Source: a virus
IMG/VR virus record: IMGVR_UViG_3300021185_003145
Coordinates: 1 to 64,000 of that record
Length of the DNA stretch: 64,000 nt
Strand: one strand, 5' to 3'
Shown: one piece after another, positions 22,062 to 46,814 of the stretch
How positions within the stretch are numbered: the first letter of the stretch is position 1
How the letters are laid out: each line of letters starts with the position of its first letter
Program-made: the position numbers and the translations under genes
Notes under the pieces: model-generated
Databases searched by the model: none
The model's input: the letters and a program-made list of their open reading frames with translations, nothing else
Told to the model about the DNA's origin: nothing

Positions 22062-22205
22062 TTATTTTGTTGCTTTATAGATATCTTCAGCAGTTTGGTT
22101 AATAGTAGATTTTACATCATCTACTATTCCATCTACATTTCCGGGTGTTTGGTACACATACATTCCATATGCTCCAACTGCCATAAAAATAAGTGCTTTA
22201 ATCAT
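22062..22205 (-). CDS. 47-residue membrane miniprotein
   Basis: A short frame starting ATG at 22205, sharing one base with the TAA of the upstream gene (TAATG). It encodes an N-terminal hydrophobic segment (ALIFMAVGAYGMYVY) followed by an acidic, helical tail (VDGIVDDVKSTINQ). It looks like a small bitopic membrane protein, co-translated with the 22205-22552 gene. Its stop lies just before the next promoter. Function unknown. Confidence 0.6.
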   Translation of the reverse strand: MIKALIFMAVGAYGMYVYQTPGNVDGIVDDVKSTINQTAEDIYKATK

Positions 22206-22552
22206 TAGTCTAACCTACTTCCTGCATAAGCACGAAAACCGTACTTTTTAAATACATCAGCAGCCGCAATAGCACCTGCTTCTAATGTATCAACATTTTG
22301 ACATCCGTATCTTGAAGGATTCCACATATTAATTGAACCAGTATAATCCTTAGTTAAACCTGCTTCTTTAAAAGCCTTACCCATTTTAGTATTCATCTTA
22401 ATACCATAAATGTTAACCCAAGCAAAACCACATGCATAAGCATCTTCACCACCAAGTTCTTTCTTAAAAAACTTATCAGCGGCAATATAAGCGGCATCTT
22501 TTGCTTCTTGTATAATAGTTGGAATTTGATTTTCTGTAACTGAAACTGTCAT
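22205..22552 (-). CDS. Small conserved protein, unknown, early
   Basis: A 115-residue protein (AAYIAADKFFKKELGG, ACGFAWVNIYGIK, GSINMWNPSRYGCQNVD, KKYGFRAYAGSRLD). Hypotheticals of this kind are frequent in marine phages. A consensus promoter TTGACA-17-TATTAT lies directly upstream and GGAGTC-like bases precede the ATG. Likely expressed early; role unknown. Confidence 0.7.
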   Translation of the reverse strand: MTVSVTENQIPTIIQEAKDAAYIAADKFFKKELGGEDAYACGFAWVNIYGIKMNTKMGKAFKEAGLTKDYTGSINMWNPSRYGCQNVDTLEAGAIAAADVFKKYGFRAYAGSRLD

Positions 22553-22583: not shown

Positions 22584-22612
22584 ATAATAGCATCTATATA
22601 CAATCTGTCAAC
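22584..22612 (-). promoter_or_regulatory. Sigma70 early promoter, consensus -35
   Basis: TTGACA (22607-22612), 17-base spacer, TATTAT (22584-22589), minus strand, upstream of the 22552 start. Confidence 0.75.
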
Positions 22613-23062: not shown

Positions 23063-23090
23063 ATAATAACATCTTTGCTATATTTGTCAA
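23063..23090 (-). promoter_or_regulatory. Sigma70 early promoter, consensus -35
   Basis: TTGACA (23085-23090), 16-base spacer, TATTAT (23063-23068), minus strand. Confidence 0.75.
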
Positions 23091-23593
23091 CCTTTTATTT
23101 GCTTTTGTGCTATTTTAAATAAAGGTGTTTGTTTAACAGTATCTAACATACCGTTAAGTATCAGTTGCTTTTCTAAAAAATACACTTTTGCAAAGCCTGG
23201 ATCGTTTTTACCAATGCAAGCCGTGTTATCTACCAAATCTGCTAGTTTGATAATTTGTGCTTCTATCGGTGCAGACAATATATGCTTACGATCTATTGCT
23301 TTACGAACTGCACGATTACCATCTTCAAGTGTACTTTGATCAGTTAACCAATAAACCAAGTCAGCAATAGTAGTTCCAAACTTAATGCAAATATCATCTA
23401 GTGTAAAATCTGTATCTTCAACTACATCATGTAACAATGCCGCGGCAACTTGCTCAGTTGTTCCACCGTGATCATATACTAATTGAGCAACATCAATAGT
23501 GTGTGTTACATATGGAAGACCAGTATACTTACGTTTCTGATCTCCGTGGGCAACTACAGCAAATTTTAATGCTTTAGTTACTATTTTATCCAT
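23087..23593 (-). CDS. HD-domain (p)ppGpp hydrolase-like protein, SpoT/MESH1 type
   Basis: A 168-residue protein starting at ATG 23593, which overlaps the upstream stop (TAATG) and has AGGA before it; a TTG at 23611 is less likely. The HD fold carries H31 in GLPYVTHTIDVA, H55-D56 in LLHDVVEDTDFT, and a distal Asp in IIKLADLVDN, matching the SpoT hydrolase motifs (SGEPYITHP, LLHDVIEDT, KLADRLHN). The length equals stand-alone alarmone hydrolases such as MESH1. It would cleave pyrophosphate from ppGpp and damp the stringent response. No synthetase domain. Confidence 0.8.
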   Translation of the reverse strand: MDKIVTKALKFAVVAHGDQKRKYTGLPYVTHTIDVAQLVYDHGGTTEQVAAALLHDVVEDTDFTLDDICIKFGTTIADLVYWLTDQSTLEDGNRAVRKAIDRKHILSAPIEAQIIKLADLVDNTACIGKNDPGFAKVYFLEKQLILNGMLDTVKQTPLFKIAQKQIKG

Positions 23594-23958
23594 TATGCAA
23601 TTCCTGTCCAACGTACAACTGATGTGTTCTTTGCATCAGTAAAAACATTACCACGTTTAAAGTTTGTTGCTGGTGCATTCCAACCGGCTGCTTTAAGCAT
23701 ATCGCCTTCTACAAAGCCTTTAGTTGCTTCTTTAACAATAAAGCCACTAACACTACCACCACCAAATGAACTTTTGTGGTCTTTTTTAATAAGTTTAATA
23801 TACTTTTGACCTTCTTTAATTTCAACTTCCCAATTATCAACAACTTCTTGCATGTATCCTGACAATGGTTTTGCACCACTATGTGTTGCCCAATCAATAT
23901 AACTTTGCTTCATTGTTTCAACTACTGTTTCACATGCTTCTAAAAGTTCTGCGTTCAT
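23593..23958 (-). CDS. Small early protein, unknown
   Basis: A 121-residue protein (MNAELLEACETVVETMKQS, YIKLIKKDHKSSFGGGSVSGFIVK, KRGNVFTDAKNTSVVRW). The C-terminal half resembles small beta domains seen in phage hypotheticals. It is first in a two-gene unit with the alarmone hydrolase and has its own early promoter. Function unknown. Confidence 0.7.
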   Translation of the reverse strand: MNAELLEACETVVETMKQSYIDWATHSGAKPLSGYMQEVVDNWEVEIKEGQKYIKLIKKDHKSSFGGGSVSGFIVKEATKGFVEGDMLKAAGWNAPATNFKRGNVFTDAKNTSVVRWTGIA

Positions 23959-23992: not shown

Positions 23993-24020
23993 ATAATAGC
24001 ACTATTACAAGTTTTGTCAA
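23993..24020 (-). promoter_or_regulatory. Sigma70 early promoter, consensus -35
   Basis: TTGACA (24015-24020), 16-base spacer, TATTAT (23993-23998), minus strand; drives 23593-23958 and the hydrolase. Confidence 0.75.
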
Positions 24021-24033
24021 CCTTTTTAGTCAC

Positions 24034-24057
24034 AAAAAAACCCTTGTAAAACAAGGG
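24034..24057 (-). terminator. Intrinsic terminator after the 24078 gene
   Basis: Stem CCCTTGT/ACAAGGG with a 3-base loop followed on the minus strand by seven T. Confidence 0.85.
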
Positions 24058-24077
24058 CTTAAAAAGTTTTTTATTTT

Positions 24078-24327: not shown

Positions 24328-25188
24328 CTAAATTGGATTTATTGGCTTTTGTCTTAACTTTATATTATTCATAACTCTTTTGTACATTTTTTGGTATGTA
24401 TCATCAAATCCTTCAACAGGTTCAAGTACACCATCTAATTCATATATTGGTGTTTTTTCTCTTGGTCCGCAAAATATGTCAATAATACCACCATTTGAGA
24501 ATATGTTTACTCTGTTGCCAAAAAAGTTAGTTGGATTATAATTACGAACTGGTAGCCACCACATTAAGTAATCTAACTCGTCTAATAAGTTCCACATAAA
24601 CTCTAAATGTGTTTTACTATTATTAATTTCTACTAACATTTGCGGTCTGCATCTTTTTATAGTTTCTTGACATCCTGTTAGTACTTCTTTCTCGTAACCT
24701 TCAACATCAATTTTTATAAAATCACAACGTCCAAAGTTTAAACTATCAATCCTAACCATTGGCTTTGCTTCGTACAAACCTCCTGGATTTGCTTCTAGTA
24801 CACTACACTCTCCGTAGTTGCCAGGAATGCTTGGATTAAACGAACTAATAAAACTGCTACCATTACGGTCACCAACAATGTTTCCGTATACTTGTACATT
24901 CTTACATTGATTCTGATCAATGTTTTTTATTAGTAAATTTCTATTAAACTCATTTGGCTCAAATGCGGCTACTTGACCTTTAAAAGCATGTTTGGCAAAC
25001 CATACAGTATGCAAACCAAGATTAGCACCAATGTCTAAAACAAAGTCTCCAGGTTGAACTACATGATTAAGTAATAAAAACTCATTTTCTGCATATTCGC
25101 CGTACAACTCTAAGCTCTTACCAATGATAATATCATTTGTAAAATAACTAAACAATCCGTGCTTACATAATTTAGTTTGTATTCCCAT
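24328..25188 (-). CDS. FkbM-family methyltransferase
   Basis: A 286-residue SAM-dependent methyltransferase. The SAM-binding motif FVLDIGANLGLHTVWF lies at about 50-65, followed by AAFEPN and the FkbM signature FIKIDVEGYEKEVLTG with PQMLVEIN. Such enzymes O-methylate sugars or lipids. Its neighbours are a cytidylyltransferase-cupin and another methyltransferase, so the likely job is modifying a surface glycan or virion sugar. It starts immediately after the upstream stop. Confidence 0.85.
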   Translation of the reverse strand: MGIQTKLCKHGLFSYFTNDIIIGKSLELYGEYAENEFLLLNHVVQPGDFVLDIGANLGLHTVWFAKHAFKGQVAAFEPNEFNRNLLIKNIDQNQCKNVQVYGNIVGDRNGSSFISSFNPSIPGNYGECSVLEANPGGLYEAKPMVRIDSLNFGRCDFIKIDVEGYEKEVLTGCQETIKRCRPQMLVEINNSKTHLEFMWNLLDELDYLMWWLPVRNYNPTNFFGNRVNIFSNGGIIDIFCGPREKTPIYELDGVLEPVEGFDDTYQKMYKRVMNNIKLRQKPINPI

Positions 25189-25946
25189 TAATCTCTTCGT
25201 TCAATATCGTCTTCTGTACATTGTGTACCAATTTGTACTTCAATTACTTTGCATGGCTCATTTGTTTGATTACTAGCCTGATGCCATACTTTTTTACTAA
25301 CTGTGTATGCACGATCGTGTGCAGTTAATGTAATAACATCTTGCACCTTGTTGTACTCCGTAGTCATCTGACACGATCCTTGTACTACATTCCAACGTTC
25401 ATCTCTATGTTGATGTAGTTGCATACTTAAACTTTTACCCGGTAATATCTCTAATTCTTTTACTTTATAATCATGTCCTTGGTCAATAGTTCTATACCAT
25501 CCCCAATCTCTGTAAACTCTGTCGCCGTTCCATTTTGCTAATAGTATTGAACTACTATTTTGCTTATCTTGGCCGCCAACTCCAAACTCAAAGGATAATT
25601 TTTCATCTTCCATTTTCATCTCCGGTATGTTTTCTGCAGTTCTATCACCGCCATTTGCAAATATAATTTCACTATCAGGCCAAGTTTCTCTAACTTGTTT
25701 AATGGCATCTATTGCAGAATTGTCCGAGTCGTCAAAAAGTACATAATCATCAACCATTCTCAAGTTTTGTATAATACCTACTCTATCAAGTATTGGCATA
25801 AACGGCTTGCCTTTCTTATTGGCTAACCACTCATCACTATTAATGCCTACTACTAGTTTGTCGCCAAGTTGCTTTGCTGACGTAAGGTATGACAAATGCC
25901 CAGAATGTAGTGGATCAAATCCACCTGTTACTAAAACAATCTTCAT
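25188..25946 (-). CDS. Cytidylyltransferase-cupin fusion
   Basis: A 252-residue two-domain protein. Residues 1-130 are a TagD/RfaE-type nucleotidyltransferase with GGFDPLHSGH (8-17), the HxGH motif, and VVGINSDEWL. Residues 145-252 are a cupin like the C-terminal domain of type II mannose-6-phosphate isomerase (LSMQLHQHRDERWNVVQG, WHQASN). It would activate a phospho-sugar or alcohol with CTP and perhaps isomerise a sugar. The fusion is unusual among bacteria. It precedes FkbM in one operon. Confidence 0.82.
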   Translation of the reverse strand: MKIVLVTGGFDPLHSGHLSYLTSAKQLGDKLVVGINSDEWLANKKGKPFMPILDRVGIIQNLRMVDDYVLFDDSDNSAIDAIKQVRETWPDSEIIFANGGDRTAENIPEMKMEDEKLSFEFGVGGQDKQNSSSILLAKWNGDRVYRDWGWYRTIDQGHDYKVKELEILPGKSLSMQLHQHRDERWNVVQGSCQMTTEYNKVQDVITLTAHDRAYTVSKKVWHQASNQTNEPCKVIEVQIGTQCTEDDIERRD

Positions 25947-25979
25947 TACTAATAGTTATCCTGTCTGTAGTTTATTCAT

Positions 25980-26001
25980 AAAAAAACTGGCTAAAGCCAG
26001 T
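25980..26001 (-). terminator. Intrinsic terminator after methyltransferase
   Basis: Stem ACTGGCT/AGCCAGT with a 2-base loop followed on the minus strand by seven T. It separates the 26006 gene from the cytidylyltransferase. Confidence 0.85.
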
Positions 26002-26005
26002 AATT

Positions 26006-26758
26006 CTAAATTTTGGAATAATCAATTAACGTACCGTCGATCCAGTACAATAGCAAATTCTTGTTAGTTAAATATCCATATCTGTTTAGTTGTTTTTTGC
26101 ATGATTCAGGTAACAATTCATCATACTCGTATAGTGTTTTATCCCCGTAATTGTATAGTTCTTCTGAATCTTTGTATACTAGTGCATTAATAACATTTGA
26201 ATTTGGTTGTTTAATAAAGTAACCTTCGTTACAATTAAAACCACTTAATACTAACATATGTATAAGATCAACAATAGTAATACTATTAGTTGCCTGCGAA
26301 TACACTCTGTAATCAGGTTCCCCATAAAAAGTGTTTATAGTAGTTGGAAACGTTAAACACAACATACCACCTAAGTTGGTACATTTATTCATCTTGTGCA
26401 AGAAACCTAACGGATCTATTGCTTCATGTAAAACACTATGAGCCCAAACTACATCAAATGTGTCTTTTGGTTCATAGTTGTATATGTCTTCATTAATAAA
26501 AGTTATACGTTCGTGTTTATATTCTTCTTTAAAATCATTCTTAATGTCAATAGCAGTTACGTTAATATCTAAAGATACCGGTGCGTCTTCATCACCATCA
26601 TCAACTTCTGCCCACCAGTAACTGTCAGATCCTTGTCCGCAACCTACATCAAGTACATTATCAATACTTTCCATCATTGTTGGATATTGTCTTAGTAGTT
26701 CAAGAAATCCGTAACTGTGTAGTCTACTATTTGCCGGGTTACTTAGTAAAAAATCCAT
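26006..26758 (-). CDS. Class I SAM methyltransferase
   Basis: A 250-residue methyltransferase with motif I NVLDVGCGQGSDSYWWA (about 37-53), VTAIDIK and post-II FDVVWAHSVLHE. The C-terminal third has no partner motif. It probably belongs with the surface-sugar genes downstream (cytidylyltransferase-cupin, FkbM), though a terminator lies between. The methyl acceptor is unknown. Confidence 0.82.
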   Translation of the reverse strand: MDFLLSNPANSRLHSYGFLELLRQYPTMMESIDNVLDVGCGQGSDSYWWAEVDDGDEDAPVSLDINVTAIDIKNDFKEEYKHERITFINEDIYNYEPKDTFDVVWAHSVLHEAIDPLGFLHKMNKCTNLGGMLCLTFPTTINTFYGEPDYRVYSQATNSITIVDLIHMLVLSGFNCNEGYFIKQPNSNVINALVYKDSEELYNYGDKTLYEYDELLPESCKKQLNRYGYLTNKNLLLYWIDGTLIDYSKI

Positions 26759-40464: not shown

Positions 40465-43400
40465 TTAAATAGAGCCTGTGTTTTGTATACGAACTGGAAT
40501 ATAAATGTATTCAACTGCCTTAACAGGTTCAACTGCAATATCAATATACAATTCGTTACGATCAATTCTATCGTTTGTGTTGTTTGATTCATCACAAACT
40601 ACTAGGTAATCGTATAAGCCTCTTTTTGCAACTAAGTCATTCATTAACTGTTCAACTACTTGTTTAACTTCATCTCTTGTTAACTTGTCGTTTGGTTCGA
40701 AAACAAACGGCTTAGTAATAACTGCTAGTCTTTCACGTACATATGCAACTAAACGTGCAACGTTAATACGATCTAATGCACTTGCAGTTGCTGTGCGTGT
40801 TTTGTTACCGTAGTTAAGTATTCCGTTACCCGGGAAGAATGATACTGGGTTAATACTGTTATCATACAATGTATCACGTAAACTTTCACGTACACCTGTT
40901 GCAACAAACTCACCTGTTACTGTATCTAAATATCCAAGTCCAGTAGCATTATCTACTACACCACGTCTTGTACCTGCTGGTGCAAACCATGGAAAACTTG
41001 CTTCATCGGAACGTATTAGTGTTCTTAAAATCATATGACTTGCTGGAACCATAATACTGTTTCCATCTAAGTCAGTTGAAATACCATGTGGATAAAACAC
41101 ACCCATATATGTATCTGCACTAACTAATCCGTCATCACCGTTATCTGATGCTAAGTTACTGTTTAACGCCCAGTTCTGGATATCAGTACTGTTTGCCGCT
41201 AATCTAAATGGTGTATCACCAATTATAAAGCCTGTGTTACGTCTATCATTGTTTAATGCAATCATGTTAGCCATTAGCTCTGGATAACCTGGTGCTGCCA
41301 TTACGTTAAAGTTTCTTTGATCTTCACGTAACTCACCACTTGTATCAATTACTGATTTCATTTTTTCTACAATAACTTGACGTACTGCGTTTCTACCCAT
41401 ATAAGGTGAACCATCAGTTTTGTTACCTGCAATACTTACCCATGCATCTGTTTCTGCTGGTAATACTTTACCTGGAAAATCATCTGCGTTAAAGTAATCT
41501 CTTCTAAACTCTTTAACATTGTAACTACTACGTCTTGTGTTAAACAATAGTGTACCACGTGGATAAAGTGCATTACTCGGTGCGTCTAAATCAACATCGT
41601 TATCTGTTAATAAACTTGCAATACTAGTAACTGTTCCTGTAACAACGTCTGTTGTTGTATCGCCCATATAACGTGCATCAGCAAATAAAATACCATCACT
41701 ACTTGTTTGATCGCCTTTATCAATTGCTACCCATTTGTTTTCACCATCAACTAGTTGATAACGTTTAATAAACGGATAGTTTTCTAAATCGCTTGTGTCA
41801 ATCCATAAATCACCAACTACTAATGCTGACTTGTCGCTTTGCTCTGTTGGAGCACTTGCACTTACAAACGGACCTTCTGGATTAGTTTGACTTAAATCAA
41901 AGCCTCTAGCATCTACAGTTACGTTTTGGTAACCTTTCCAGTCTGTACCATCGTGTATCATAATATCTACTTCGTTAGTAATATTCTGGTACCACATACG
42001 ACCGTTATCTGGATTTGCAGTAGGTTGTGTTGCACCTACAACGTATGTTAATGCTTGGAAATTACTTATAATAATTTCACCAGTTGTAACATCGTCTCTT
42101 GCATAACTGTTTGCACTAACTATGCCTGCATCTGCAATCGGTGTTCCTGTAGTTTCGTCTAATTTTACAAAACCACCTAAACTGTGTGTAATTGTAATTG
42201 CACCAGTATCTTCTAACTTTGCAGTAACATATGGAACAGCCGCTGCATTAAATTCTTGTACAAATAACTCTTTAGTTGTACCACTTAATGTAACTGATGC
42301 ACTTGATGTTGCTATTGTGTTTTTACCACTTGCAATAATTGTAAAGGCATCACTTGCAGTAAATGTTGGGCTAGTTAAGTTACCTGTAAGTACTGTTTCG
42401 CCTTTTACTTTACGCTCATATAACTTATATGTTATTTCACCTAATGTTGACTTTTCTGCTAACGCAATTACTTTGCCTGTAGCAACGTTTAATCCGCCGC
42501 CAATAGCATCAACGTCATACATTGCAGCCTCTTCTGACTTGTATAACTTAACACTTTTATCTGCAAATAAATCTGTTATTGAACTATATGCACTTACATC
42601 AATGTCTGCACCTGTGTTAGAATTTGTTGTTTTAATCCAAATACTTCCAGTTGGTCTTGATGCTGCATCACCGCTTCTCCATTCTGGAATTGAAGTGTGT
42701 GGATCAATGTTAATTGCTGGAATGTAAAAATCTCCTGCTGACATACCAATATCTGCTAATAATGTACCTGTTCCGCTAATAGCAATTTTTCCTGAAGCTG
42801 TACTTGCAGTTCCAAACAAACGAATGTTTCCTTCACTACTAAGTTGTGAAGTAACACCTGTAACAGCCGCTGCATTAATATCTGCTACCACTTGAGAAGC
42901 AGATGTGCCTGTCATTGATATAACATTACCATTAATTGTAATAGTATGTCCTATTGTTACTGTTGGATTTGTTTCTGTACCTTGTACTGCTGACCATGTG
43001 TTGTACCATGAATTAACACCAACAACTTGCCAACCTGCACTTGTCTTTAAGAAAAGTTTGTTGTTTGTTGTTGTAGTGTCAATGGCATAATCTGCTATTG
43101 AACCAATATGTGCTTTTGGAATACCACCATCCATATCAGTTGCCGCAGTAATTACTACCGGTACTTTATTAGTAAATGTTTGTGTACTTGAAGACCATTG
43201 AAAAATTCCCCATTTAGACTTTGTAGTGTTAAGCCAGTGTGTTCCGTTAGCCGGGTCACCTGCAGGACGTCCTGCACTTCCTGTTAACTGTCCTAAATCA
43301 ATGTCTGCACGAACGATATATGCTCTATTACTAACGCCTAATAAACTGTATGCTGACATTAAGCCATGCTCGTTTAGTTCATAGCCATGTAAAGCAGTTC

Positions 43401-43641
43401 CGCTTGTACTCTGATAATATGATGGTTCACCAAATGTAGAAACTAGTTCTCTTTGTGAGCCAATTAAATATGCCTTTTCAGCATTTGCTTTTGTAGTTCC
43501 ACTAGCAGTATTGCCTGTGGTTGGATCTTTCTTGTCTTGTGCAGATGCTATCACCAACATTGGTACCGTACCAACTGCCGTACTTGCGTACTGTGATTCA
43601 TCTATAACTTTGACCTCGATACCGGGTGAAATAAGTGCCAT
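40465..43641 (-). CDS. 18: Tail sheath protein gp18, enlarged
   Basis: A 1058-residue contractile sheath protein. The start (MALISPGIEVKVIDES) and end (a C-terminal block with FVFEPNDKLTRDEVKQ, YIDIAVEPVKAVEYI) are typical gp18. T4 gp18 has 659 residues; the extra about 400 lie between residues 100 and 640 as repeated small beta units with a recurring layout GxxW near an N-x-W (ANGTHWLNTTKSKWGIF, DNGRMWYQN, WIKTTNSN). These should be surface insertions. Late TATAAATA upstream. Confidence 0.92.
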   Translation of the reverse strand: MALISPGIEVKVIDESQYASTAVGTVPMLVIASAQDKKDPTTGNTASGTTKANAEKAYLIGSQRELVSTFGEPSYYQSTSGTALHGYELNEHGLMSAYSLLGVSNRAYIVRADIDLGQLTGSAGRPAGDPANGTHWLNTTKSKWGIFQWSSSTQTFTNKVPVVITAATDMDGGIPKAHIGSIADYAIDTTTTNNKLFLKTSAGWQVVGVNSWYNTWSAVQGTETNPTVTIGHTITINGNVISMTGTSASQVVADINAAAVTGVTSQLSSEGNIRLFGTASTASGKIAISGTGTLLADIGMSAGDFYIPAINIDPHTSIPEWRSGDAASRPTGSIWIKTTNSNTGADIDVSAYSSITDLFADKSVKLYKSEEAAMYDVDAIGGGLNVATGKVIALAEKSTLGEITYKLYERKVKGETVLTGNLTSPTFTASDAFTIIASGKNTIATSSASVTLSGTTKELFVQEFNAAAVPYVTAKLEDTGAITITHSLGGFVKLDETTGTPIADAGIVSANSYARDDVTTGEIIISNFQALTYVVGATQPTANPDNGRMWYQNITNEVDIMIHDGTDWKGYQNVTVDARGFDLSQTNPEGPFVSASAPTEQSDKSALVVGDLWIDTSDLENYPFIKRYQLVDGENKWVAIDKGDQTSSDGILFADARYMGDTTTDVVTGTVTSIASLLTDNDVDLDAPSNALYPRGTLLFNTRRSSYNVKEFRRDYFNADDFPGKVLPAETDAWVSIAGNKTDGSPYMGRNAVRQVIVEKMKSVIDTSGELREDQRNFNVMAAPGYPELMANMIALNNDRRNTGFIIGDTPFRLAANSTDIQNWALNSNLASDNGDDGLVSADTYMGVFYPHGISTDLDGNSIMVPASHMILRTLIRSDEASFPWFAPAGTRRGVVDNATGLGYLDTVTGEFVATGVRESLRDTLYDNSINPVSFFPGNGILNYGNKTRTATASALDRINVARLVAYVRERLAVITKPFVFEPNDKLTRDEVKQVVEQLMNDLVAKRGLYDYLVVCDESNNTNDRIDRNELYIDIAVEPVKAVEYIYIPVRIQNTGSI

Positions 43642-45507: not shown

Positions 45508-46749
45508 CTATTTAGTCACTTTCAATAGTATTGTCTGATCATTGATTCTGCCATTTAGTTTAGTTTCAGTAGTTTTTATACTATCCATAAACTTCCTAAC
45601 AAATACTTTATTACCTTTATTAAAACTTGCTAACTGCTCTAATGGCTTCCTAAGTGTTTTTTGTACACTTTGTTTTTCATCAAAGTATAATATTGTTGTT
45701 CCTTTAACTTGTAATGTAGCATGTTCTTCAGCAACATACTTTCCTAACTTACGAGTTTTTACATTGTATACCCATAACTCTGCACTTTCAAGTATATCAA
45801 TAGGATTAACACTTGCAATTTTTAGTGTTGTATCCTCTTTTTGATACTTCAATCTTGCAACAATTTTATCCTTAGCAACAGGCTTTTTTGTTCTAGTTTG
45901 ATTTGCTTTTTGGCTCGTAATAATCATATCACATGCACTTACTATTGCATTGTATATTTCAGCAATTTTCTTTTGTTGCTTTGTTGAAAAATGTGCATAT
46001 CCTTCAACTAATTGATCATACATATCATCATCTTTTTTCTTAGGCCCTATAAGTTCAGAAAACTCTTGTGCTACCGGCTTAAAGTACTCTCTAATAATAC
46101 GAGCATGATTACCTTTAACTTCTAACTTTCGTAATGAAGAAACAGGATTAAAACTTTTTAAATCAAACTTATCAATATTATCTAATGCTTCGTCAACTTC
46201 TTCTTCAATCTTTGTTGCATATACCATACTAGCATTTTTTAACTTTTGTTGTATGCTTAATACAGGTGCAGTATTCTTTGCTTTTTCTTCTTTTTTAATT
46301 TCGTCAACTATTAAAGATCCTGCCGCAATGGCTTCTTCAACTCTTGGCTTAATAAATTCTGTGATAGGTCGCATACTATCCATTGTCCCAGGACATGATT
46401 CCCAATATTCATTATGTGGTTCAAAGTAATCAGGACATCCTGTTAATAGTAACTTGGCGTATATTGCAACAGTTGGGCTTATTTGTCCTTTCTTAGCACT
46501 AGAAATATCTTTCTTAGTGTATTGCTCTTGTTTCATCCATTCGTAAATAAAAGGAACAACATCACTTGTTTTATAGTTCTGATAATAAAACTCTACTGCT
46601 TGTTGCCTTAACCTGTGGAATTCATATCCAGACAGTTTTTCAAAATCAGCAAAACTAGGTCCTGTTAATTTAGCACCTCTTTTAAGTCTAGGTGCACCTT
46701 TTACTACTTTTTTCTTAGGCTTTTTAGTAAGTGATCTTGCAGTAGCCAT
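45508..46749 (-). CDS. Conserved marine myovirus protein with basic N-terminus
   Basis: A 413-residue protein. It has a strongly basic N-terminus (KKPKKKVVKGAPRLKRG), a helical body with EFHRLRQQAVEFYYQNY and PTVAIYAKLLLTGCPDYF, and a C-terminal beta domain (YNVKTRKLGKYVAEE, KGTTILYFDEKQS). Marine T4-like phages share it; function unknown. An early-type promoter, not a late box, lies upstream, so despite its virion neighbours it is probably a host-takeover or DNA-associated protein. Confidence 0.7.
   Translation of the reverse strand: MATARSLTKKPKKKVVKGAPRLKRGAKLTGPSFADFEKLSGYEFHRLRQQAVEFYYQNYKTSDVVPFIYEWMKQEQYTKKDISSAKKGQISPTVAIYAKLLLTGCPDYFEPHNEYWESCPGTMDSMRPITEFIKPRVEEAIAAGSLIVDEIKKEEKAKNTAPVLSIQQKLKNASMVYATKIEEEVDEALDNIDKFDLKSFNPVSSLRKLEVKGNHARIIREYFKPVAQEFSELIGPKKKDDDMYDQLVEGYAHFSTKQQKKIAEIYNAIVSACDMIITSQKANQTRTKKPVAKDKIVARLKYQKEDTTLKIASVNPIDILESAELWVYNVKTRKLGKYVAEEHATLQVKGTTILYFDEKQSVQKTLRKPLEQLASFNKGNKVFVRKFMDSIKTTETKLNGRINDQTILLKVTK
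45509..45517 (-). promoter_or_regulatory. Late box GTGACTAAATA for gp13
   Basis: Minus-strand TGACTAAATA overlapping the end of the 45508 gene, 25 bases before the gp13 ATG. Confidence 0.65.
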
Positions 46750-46774: not shown

Positions 46775-46802
46775 ATAATACACTGTTTTGTTTGTATGTC
46801 AA
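46775..46802 (-). promoter_or_regulatory. Sigma70 early promoter
   Basis: TTGACA (46797-46802), 16-base spacer, TATTAT (46775-46780), minus strand, before the 46749 start. Confidence 0.75.
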
Positions 46803-46814
46803 CCTTTATCTTTA

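Follow-up and report, generated by a model that had tools for sequence, protein, structure and literature searches.

Small alarmone hydrolases (SAHs) are known as antitoxins of toxSAS (PMC8118318). The nearest tested relative of the protein described here, PaSpo of Salmonella phage SSU5, takes pyrophosphate off tRNA, undoing the modification made by the toxSAS FaRel2 (PMC11559606), and was co-expressed while CapRel was purified (PMC9712102). Iyer et al. 2021 predicted an HD-alarmone PDEase in jumbo phages, proposed as a counter to alarmone-based immunity (PMC7824862). A phage SAH has also been proposed by the authors on phage Adele, who regard its substrate as not predictable and note that (p)ppGpp is not cut by cyanophage MazG (PMC12846349). 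Alarmone degradation by phages has been put forward before (PMC7824862, PMC12846349); within an incomplete coverage of the literature, no study was found in which the effect of a phage SAH on infection had been tested.

The locus considered here lies in a 64,000-nucleotide stretch of viral DNA (positions 1 to 64,000 of IMG/VR record IMGVR_UViG_3300021185_003145), referred to as the window. The window belongs to a record of 91,666 bases and 36% GC, itself a fragment, which encodes a UvsX-like recombinase, a single-strand binding protein, a helicase, a terminase and contractile-tail genes. The terminase is closest to those of the large phages PA5oct, Phosso and Atu_ph07, and related contigs extend up to 307-328 kb. 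A search of 24 kb of nucleotide sequence against phages gave no match, and the phage therefore has no near named relative. It may be aquatic, mainly because a relative of the partner gene described below is carried by a Pelagibacter phage. The tail sheath protein (40465-43641) comprises 1058 aa, against a 915-position PHROG profile that was matched over its whole length. A sugar or surface cassette, kept in many relatives, occupies positions 24328-26758 between the recombination genes and the SAH unit, and consists of an FkbM methyltransferase, a cytidylyltransferase fused to a mannose-6-phosphate isomerase-like cupin, and a further methyltransferase. The features of the SAH locus are as follows.

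22584-22611, minus strand: third promoter copy, before the gene of 115 aa at 22205-22552 (motif search).
23063-23090, minus strand: second promoter copy, preceding the next gene; the -35 box reaches the stop codon of the hydrolase (motif search).
23087-23593, minus strand: predicted small alarmone hydrolase, PaSpo type (HD_4, 168 aa; reading frame, profiles, residues, fold and tree).
23593-23958, minus strand: 121-aa partner, DUF7717-like / phrog_5014, directly upstream of the hydrolase (clustering and tblastn).
23993-24020, minus strand: sigma-70-type promoter of the two-gene unit, TTGACA-N16-TATTAT, in which TG precedes the -10 box; conserved in relatives.
24038-24060, minus strand: terminator-like hairpin with a T-run, isolating the unit from the upstream gene (sequence; present in most aligned relatives).

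The 168-aa protein, read from an ATG at 23593 on the minus strand, matched HD_4 (PF13328) above the family cut-off in a Pfam profile search (E=4.6e-16), the HD/hydrolase part of TIGR00691 spoT_relA (E=5.8e-24) and phrog_990, "metal-dependent phosphohydrolase" (E=4.7e-34). Its sequence matches in the PDB were human and fly Mesh1, Lmo0812 and Rel/SpoT enzymes, with E values down to 8e-17 for MESH1 and Lmo0812. Together, the HD_4, spoT_relA and PDB matches place the assignment as a hydrolase far beyond chance. The HD-type motifs singled out in the preliminary description, including KLADLVDN, are real, and comprise R21-K22/H31, H55-D56..E59-D60 and K116-LAD119-LVDN123. In an alignment of 59 family members with 27 invariant columns, R21, K22, H31, H55, D56, E59, D60, K116, D119 and N123 are all invariant. 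Homologues lacking the metal-binding HD residues had been named beforehand as evidence that would count against the assignment; H31, H55, D56 and D119 are kept in 59 of 59. In a 12-sequence comparison, MESH1, Lmo0812 and B. subtilis Rel had the R, H, HD, ED, D and N in common with the phage proteins; as is established for RelSeq and MESH1, these are the metal ligands and catalytic residues. The same comparison revealed two traits of the phage family, namely a D-G-N-R signature ahead of the R-K pair and, after the last Asp, N-T/S-x-S/C/D in place of N-[LM]-R-[TD]. The 168-aa protein has N-T-A-C at the site where ppGpp hydrolases have N-[LM]-R-[TD], so that the base pocket may differ and the substrate could be a different one.

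An AlphaFold2 model of the hydrolase, built with an input of 51 sequences, all viral, had a pLDDT of 97 and a pTM of 0.92. All of its PDB matches with E<=0.001 (47 of 47) were RSH hydrolases (RelA/SpoT type), the top TM-scores being 0.87-0.88 to Mesh1/MESH1, and MESH1 complexes with NADPH and PAPS were among the best of these fold matches. Values of dN/dS against four close relatives ranged from 0.08 to 0.26, and the gene is therefore under purifying selection. The protein combines the features of an SAH, i.e., the profile match, the metal and catalytic residues, a stand-alone single domain and the RSH-type fold. Sequence, residues, fold and selection all give strong support to reading it as a SpoT-type hydrolase that stands alone, and it very probably hydrolyses a 3'-pyrophosphate.

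In a maximum-likelihood tree of 69 sequences, for which the bootstrap was not fully settled, the hydrolase was located in a 47-row clade (support 100/99) with about 40 viral proteins, SSU5 PaSpo and the proteins of E. coli phage Bas82, Komagataeibacter phage phiKM1 and Stenotrophomonas phage DLP6. Outside this clade were metazoan MESH1, fly Mesh1, Lmo0812 and long Rel, and inside it was one long-branched Flavobacterium SAH. The tree left out the cellular PaSpo and PbcSpo references; owing to their absence and to the position of the Flavobacterium SAH, it is a good but incomplete test of the PaSpo subfamily name. In this test the hydrolase groups with SSU5 PaSpo, with which it shares PHROG 990, and apart from MESH1 and long Rel. 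Membership in the MESH1 subfamily was rejected, both MESH1 and fly Mesh1 being outside the clade. The original designation of a stand-alone SpoT/MESH1-like hydrolase thus stands for its SpoT-type, stand-alone part and falls for MESH1, and the suggested phylogeny against SAH families led to the phage proteins. Cellular best matches by profile were mostly long Rel proteins, at 35-45% identity. Homologues of the hydrolase were detected in 286 of 50,697 phage records, and relatives in 356 of 72,556 plasmid records. The hydrolase belongs to a phage family already known; what is new is that it is steadily paired with a small gene that has so far escaped study.

This small gene and the hydrolase form a unit in which the partner stop and the hydrolase start overlap in TAATG, the order being terminator-like hairpin, promoter, 121-aa gene and, in second place, the hydrolase. 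The preliminary description of the hydrolase as following a strong early promoter holds in part. A consensus promoter, TTGACA-N16-TATTAT, is indeed present at 24020-23993, but the 121-aa gene (23593-23958) intervenes, and early expression is an inference. Exact copies of AGGTTGACA-N16-TATTAT occur four times in the window; for the motif with up to two mismatches, 0.48 matches were expected, and none of 100 shuffles reached four. Three copies stand in tandem at 22.5-24.1 kb, each before small neighbouring genes. The fourth AGGTTGACA-N16-TATTAT copy (46775-46805) lies ahead of a gene of unknown function (45508-46749, phrog_11903). A pattern with an 18-base spacer was discarded, as it gave chance-level matches only; the correct spacer is 16.

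In profile searches the partner displayed weak similarity to DUF7717 / phrog_5014. Its model is fairly confident (pLDDT 89), with no significant fold match in the PDB (best E 0.8), and PADLOC, run on four genes, gave no match. Clustering placed the partner immediately ahead of the hydrolase in 15 viral loci, to which tblastn added one more (L079); many of these 15-16 loci are syntenic relatives. The pair persists with otherwise different neighbours in four distinct loci (L060, L062/L068, L076 and L079, L062 and L068 being identical), where the other window neighbours are absent within the examined stretch, save for the 115-aa gene (22205-22552) in L060 and L076. These pairs are not fully independent, because the contigs may be distant kin whose genomes have been rearranged. 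L062/L068 also has the promoter type, as do L060 and L076, the -10 boxes of the latter two being weaker. In the phage collection, only Pelagibacter phage Mosig has a relative of the partner, with no annotated SAH beside it in the stretch examined. The Mosig gene (L012 3971-4333) sits immediately ahead of a tRNA gene cluster. Of all the findings, this conserved partner was the one least to be anticipated.

No RelA_SpoT synthetase (PF04607) was detected in the 91.7-kb record, in a search whose positive controls responded, nor, again with positive controls, in seven related and possibly incomplete records of 113-328 kb. The hydrolase is therefore an orphan, and its substrate is most likely made by the host. 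The same result bears on the possibility that the hydrolase is the antitoxin of a toxSAS module, with the partner as its toxin. The tight unit with overlapping start and stop and the established antitoxin role of SAHs would agree with such an arrangement, but the partner lacks a synthetase domain, offers only the weak profile matches and no significant fold match, and no cognate RelA_SpoT gene was present in the record (a fragment) or in the seven relatives. A toxSAS toxin-antitoxin module was rejected on these grounds, and we hold it to be highly improbable. MazG (PF03819) was likewise absent from the 91.7-kb record, and identity as a MazG pyrophosphohydrolase was rejected, the hydrolase being an HD_4 protein. 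Neither the starved oligotrophic host of the preliminary description nor a cyanophage setting received support from any result here.

The explanation that best accommodates these data, and which as a whole we regard as reasonably probable, begins with a strong host-type promoter that would drive the two-gene unit. Its second product would be an active Mn-dependent 3'-pyrophosphohydrolase of the SAH family, PaSpo type, acting in trans on a 3'-pyrophosphorylated nucleotide of host rather than phage origin. While infection proceeds, it would most likely serve to cancel a signal that arrests host growth. This signal could consist of toxSAS products, namely tRNA with pyrophosphorylated 3'-CCA ends or (p)ppApp, or else of (p)ppGpp induced by stress. 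From sequence, ppGpp, ppApp, tRNA 3'-pyrophosphate and others are all candidate substrates. Against the explanation as a whole stand the only 45% identity of the tested relative and a base pocket that differs from that of ppGpp hydrolases. A role mainly against toxSAS products is a serious candidate, which we place just short of probable. A second candidate, that of the preliminary description, is early degradation of (p)ppGpp, by which a starved host would continue to produce rRNA, nucleotides and phage products. Mesh1, SpoT and other ppGpp hydrolases are among the closest folds, the catalytic residues are intact and a strong promoter precedes the unit. However, substrate cannot be read from sequence in this class, in which SAHMex cuts ppApp and not ppGpp while RelSeq does the reverse (PMC7644958); moreover, the protein does not keep the N-x-R-T/D motif found in Rel and MESH1, and it is against toxSAS products that its nearest tested relative is documented. 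A role mainly against (p)ppGpp is thus entertained tentatively, as a possible one.

Any other substrate or role appears unlikely. One such alternative is the removal of phosphate from another 2'/3'-phosphorylated nucleotide (NADPH, PAPS or PAP), by which the phage would tune cofactors rather than alarmones. The MESH1-NADPH and MESH1-PAPS complexes among the top fold matches point in this direction, as does the weak hydrolysis of NADPH by XccSAH, but the latter is more than a hundredfold below the alarmone activities of the same enzyme (PMC9765508), little or no NADPH activity was reported in a coupled assay (PMC7644958), and the phage family lies outside the MESH1 clade. We consider this alternative quite improbable.

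A different neighbourhood was observed in a second lineage, comprising 38 related loci taken to be those of freshwater phages. There the hydrolase is near a metallophosphoesterase in all 38, an AAA_33 kinase-like gene in 35 and a T4 RNA ligase 1 (RnlA)-like ligase in 20, in varying gene order (e.g., L025 3811-6550). Because the loci represent one lineage, this neighbourhood counts as one event; it fits RNA-end repair, favouring counter-defence or tRNA repair. It was not seen at the hydrolase locus of the window, and a search of the window's own record for T4-type RNA ligase (PF09511), run without a positive control, gave no match. More generally, phage PaSpo-type SAHs might be 3'-end repair enzymes that take pyrophosphate off both tRNA and free nucleotides and thereby defeat toxSAS immunity (CapRel and kin). 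In the present, presumably aquatic, jumbo-phage group, the enzyme and the DUF7717-like protein, whose fold is not recognised, would then act together as a conserved module of two genes, the second protein perhaps directing the enzyme to tRNA or regulating it; this proposal as a whole we view as rather doubtful. Two further contexts were observed. In L072 (2429-2875) the SAH domain is embedded in a reading frame of more than 2000 codons, possibly an injected polyvalent protein, and in phiKM1 (L175 1798-2977) the SAH follows HicA/HicB-like toxin-antitoxin genes and overlaps the HicB-like gene.

If active, enzymes of this kind would provide phages with a widespread route for erasing host alarmone or toxSAS signals, given the 286 phage and 356 plasmid records. 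The locus opens the direct question of whether the hydrolase and its partner let the phage escape CapRel-type immunity, and the conserved partner offers a way into a protein family of unknown function.

Among the known systems, SpoT and the long Rel proteins share a homologous HD domain with the hydrolase, but long Rel adds synthetase and regulatory domains, whereas the hydrolase is an HD domain only, of 168 aa. MESH1 has the same fold (TM 0.87-0.88) and the same catalytic residues; unlike the hydrolase, it lies outside the phage clade, lacks the D-G-N-R signature and carries N-L-R-D in place of N-T-A-C. The jumbo-phage HD-alarmone PDEase belongs to the same enzyme class, and jumbo phages such as PA5oct are also closest to the window by terminase; it was a domain annotation, with operon, partner gene and promoter falling outside the passages compared (PMC7824862). 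SSU5 PaSpo differs from the hydrolase in its length (213 aa) and C-terminal extension, as well as in its annotated neighbours, the gene immediately upstream not clustering with the DUF7717-like partner. In contrast to these differences, the two proteins are 45% identical over 88% of the query, and both are phage-borne, stand-alone HD_4 proteins of PHROG 990, which belong to the same supported clade and carry the same catalytic residues.
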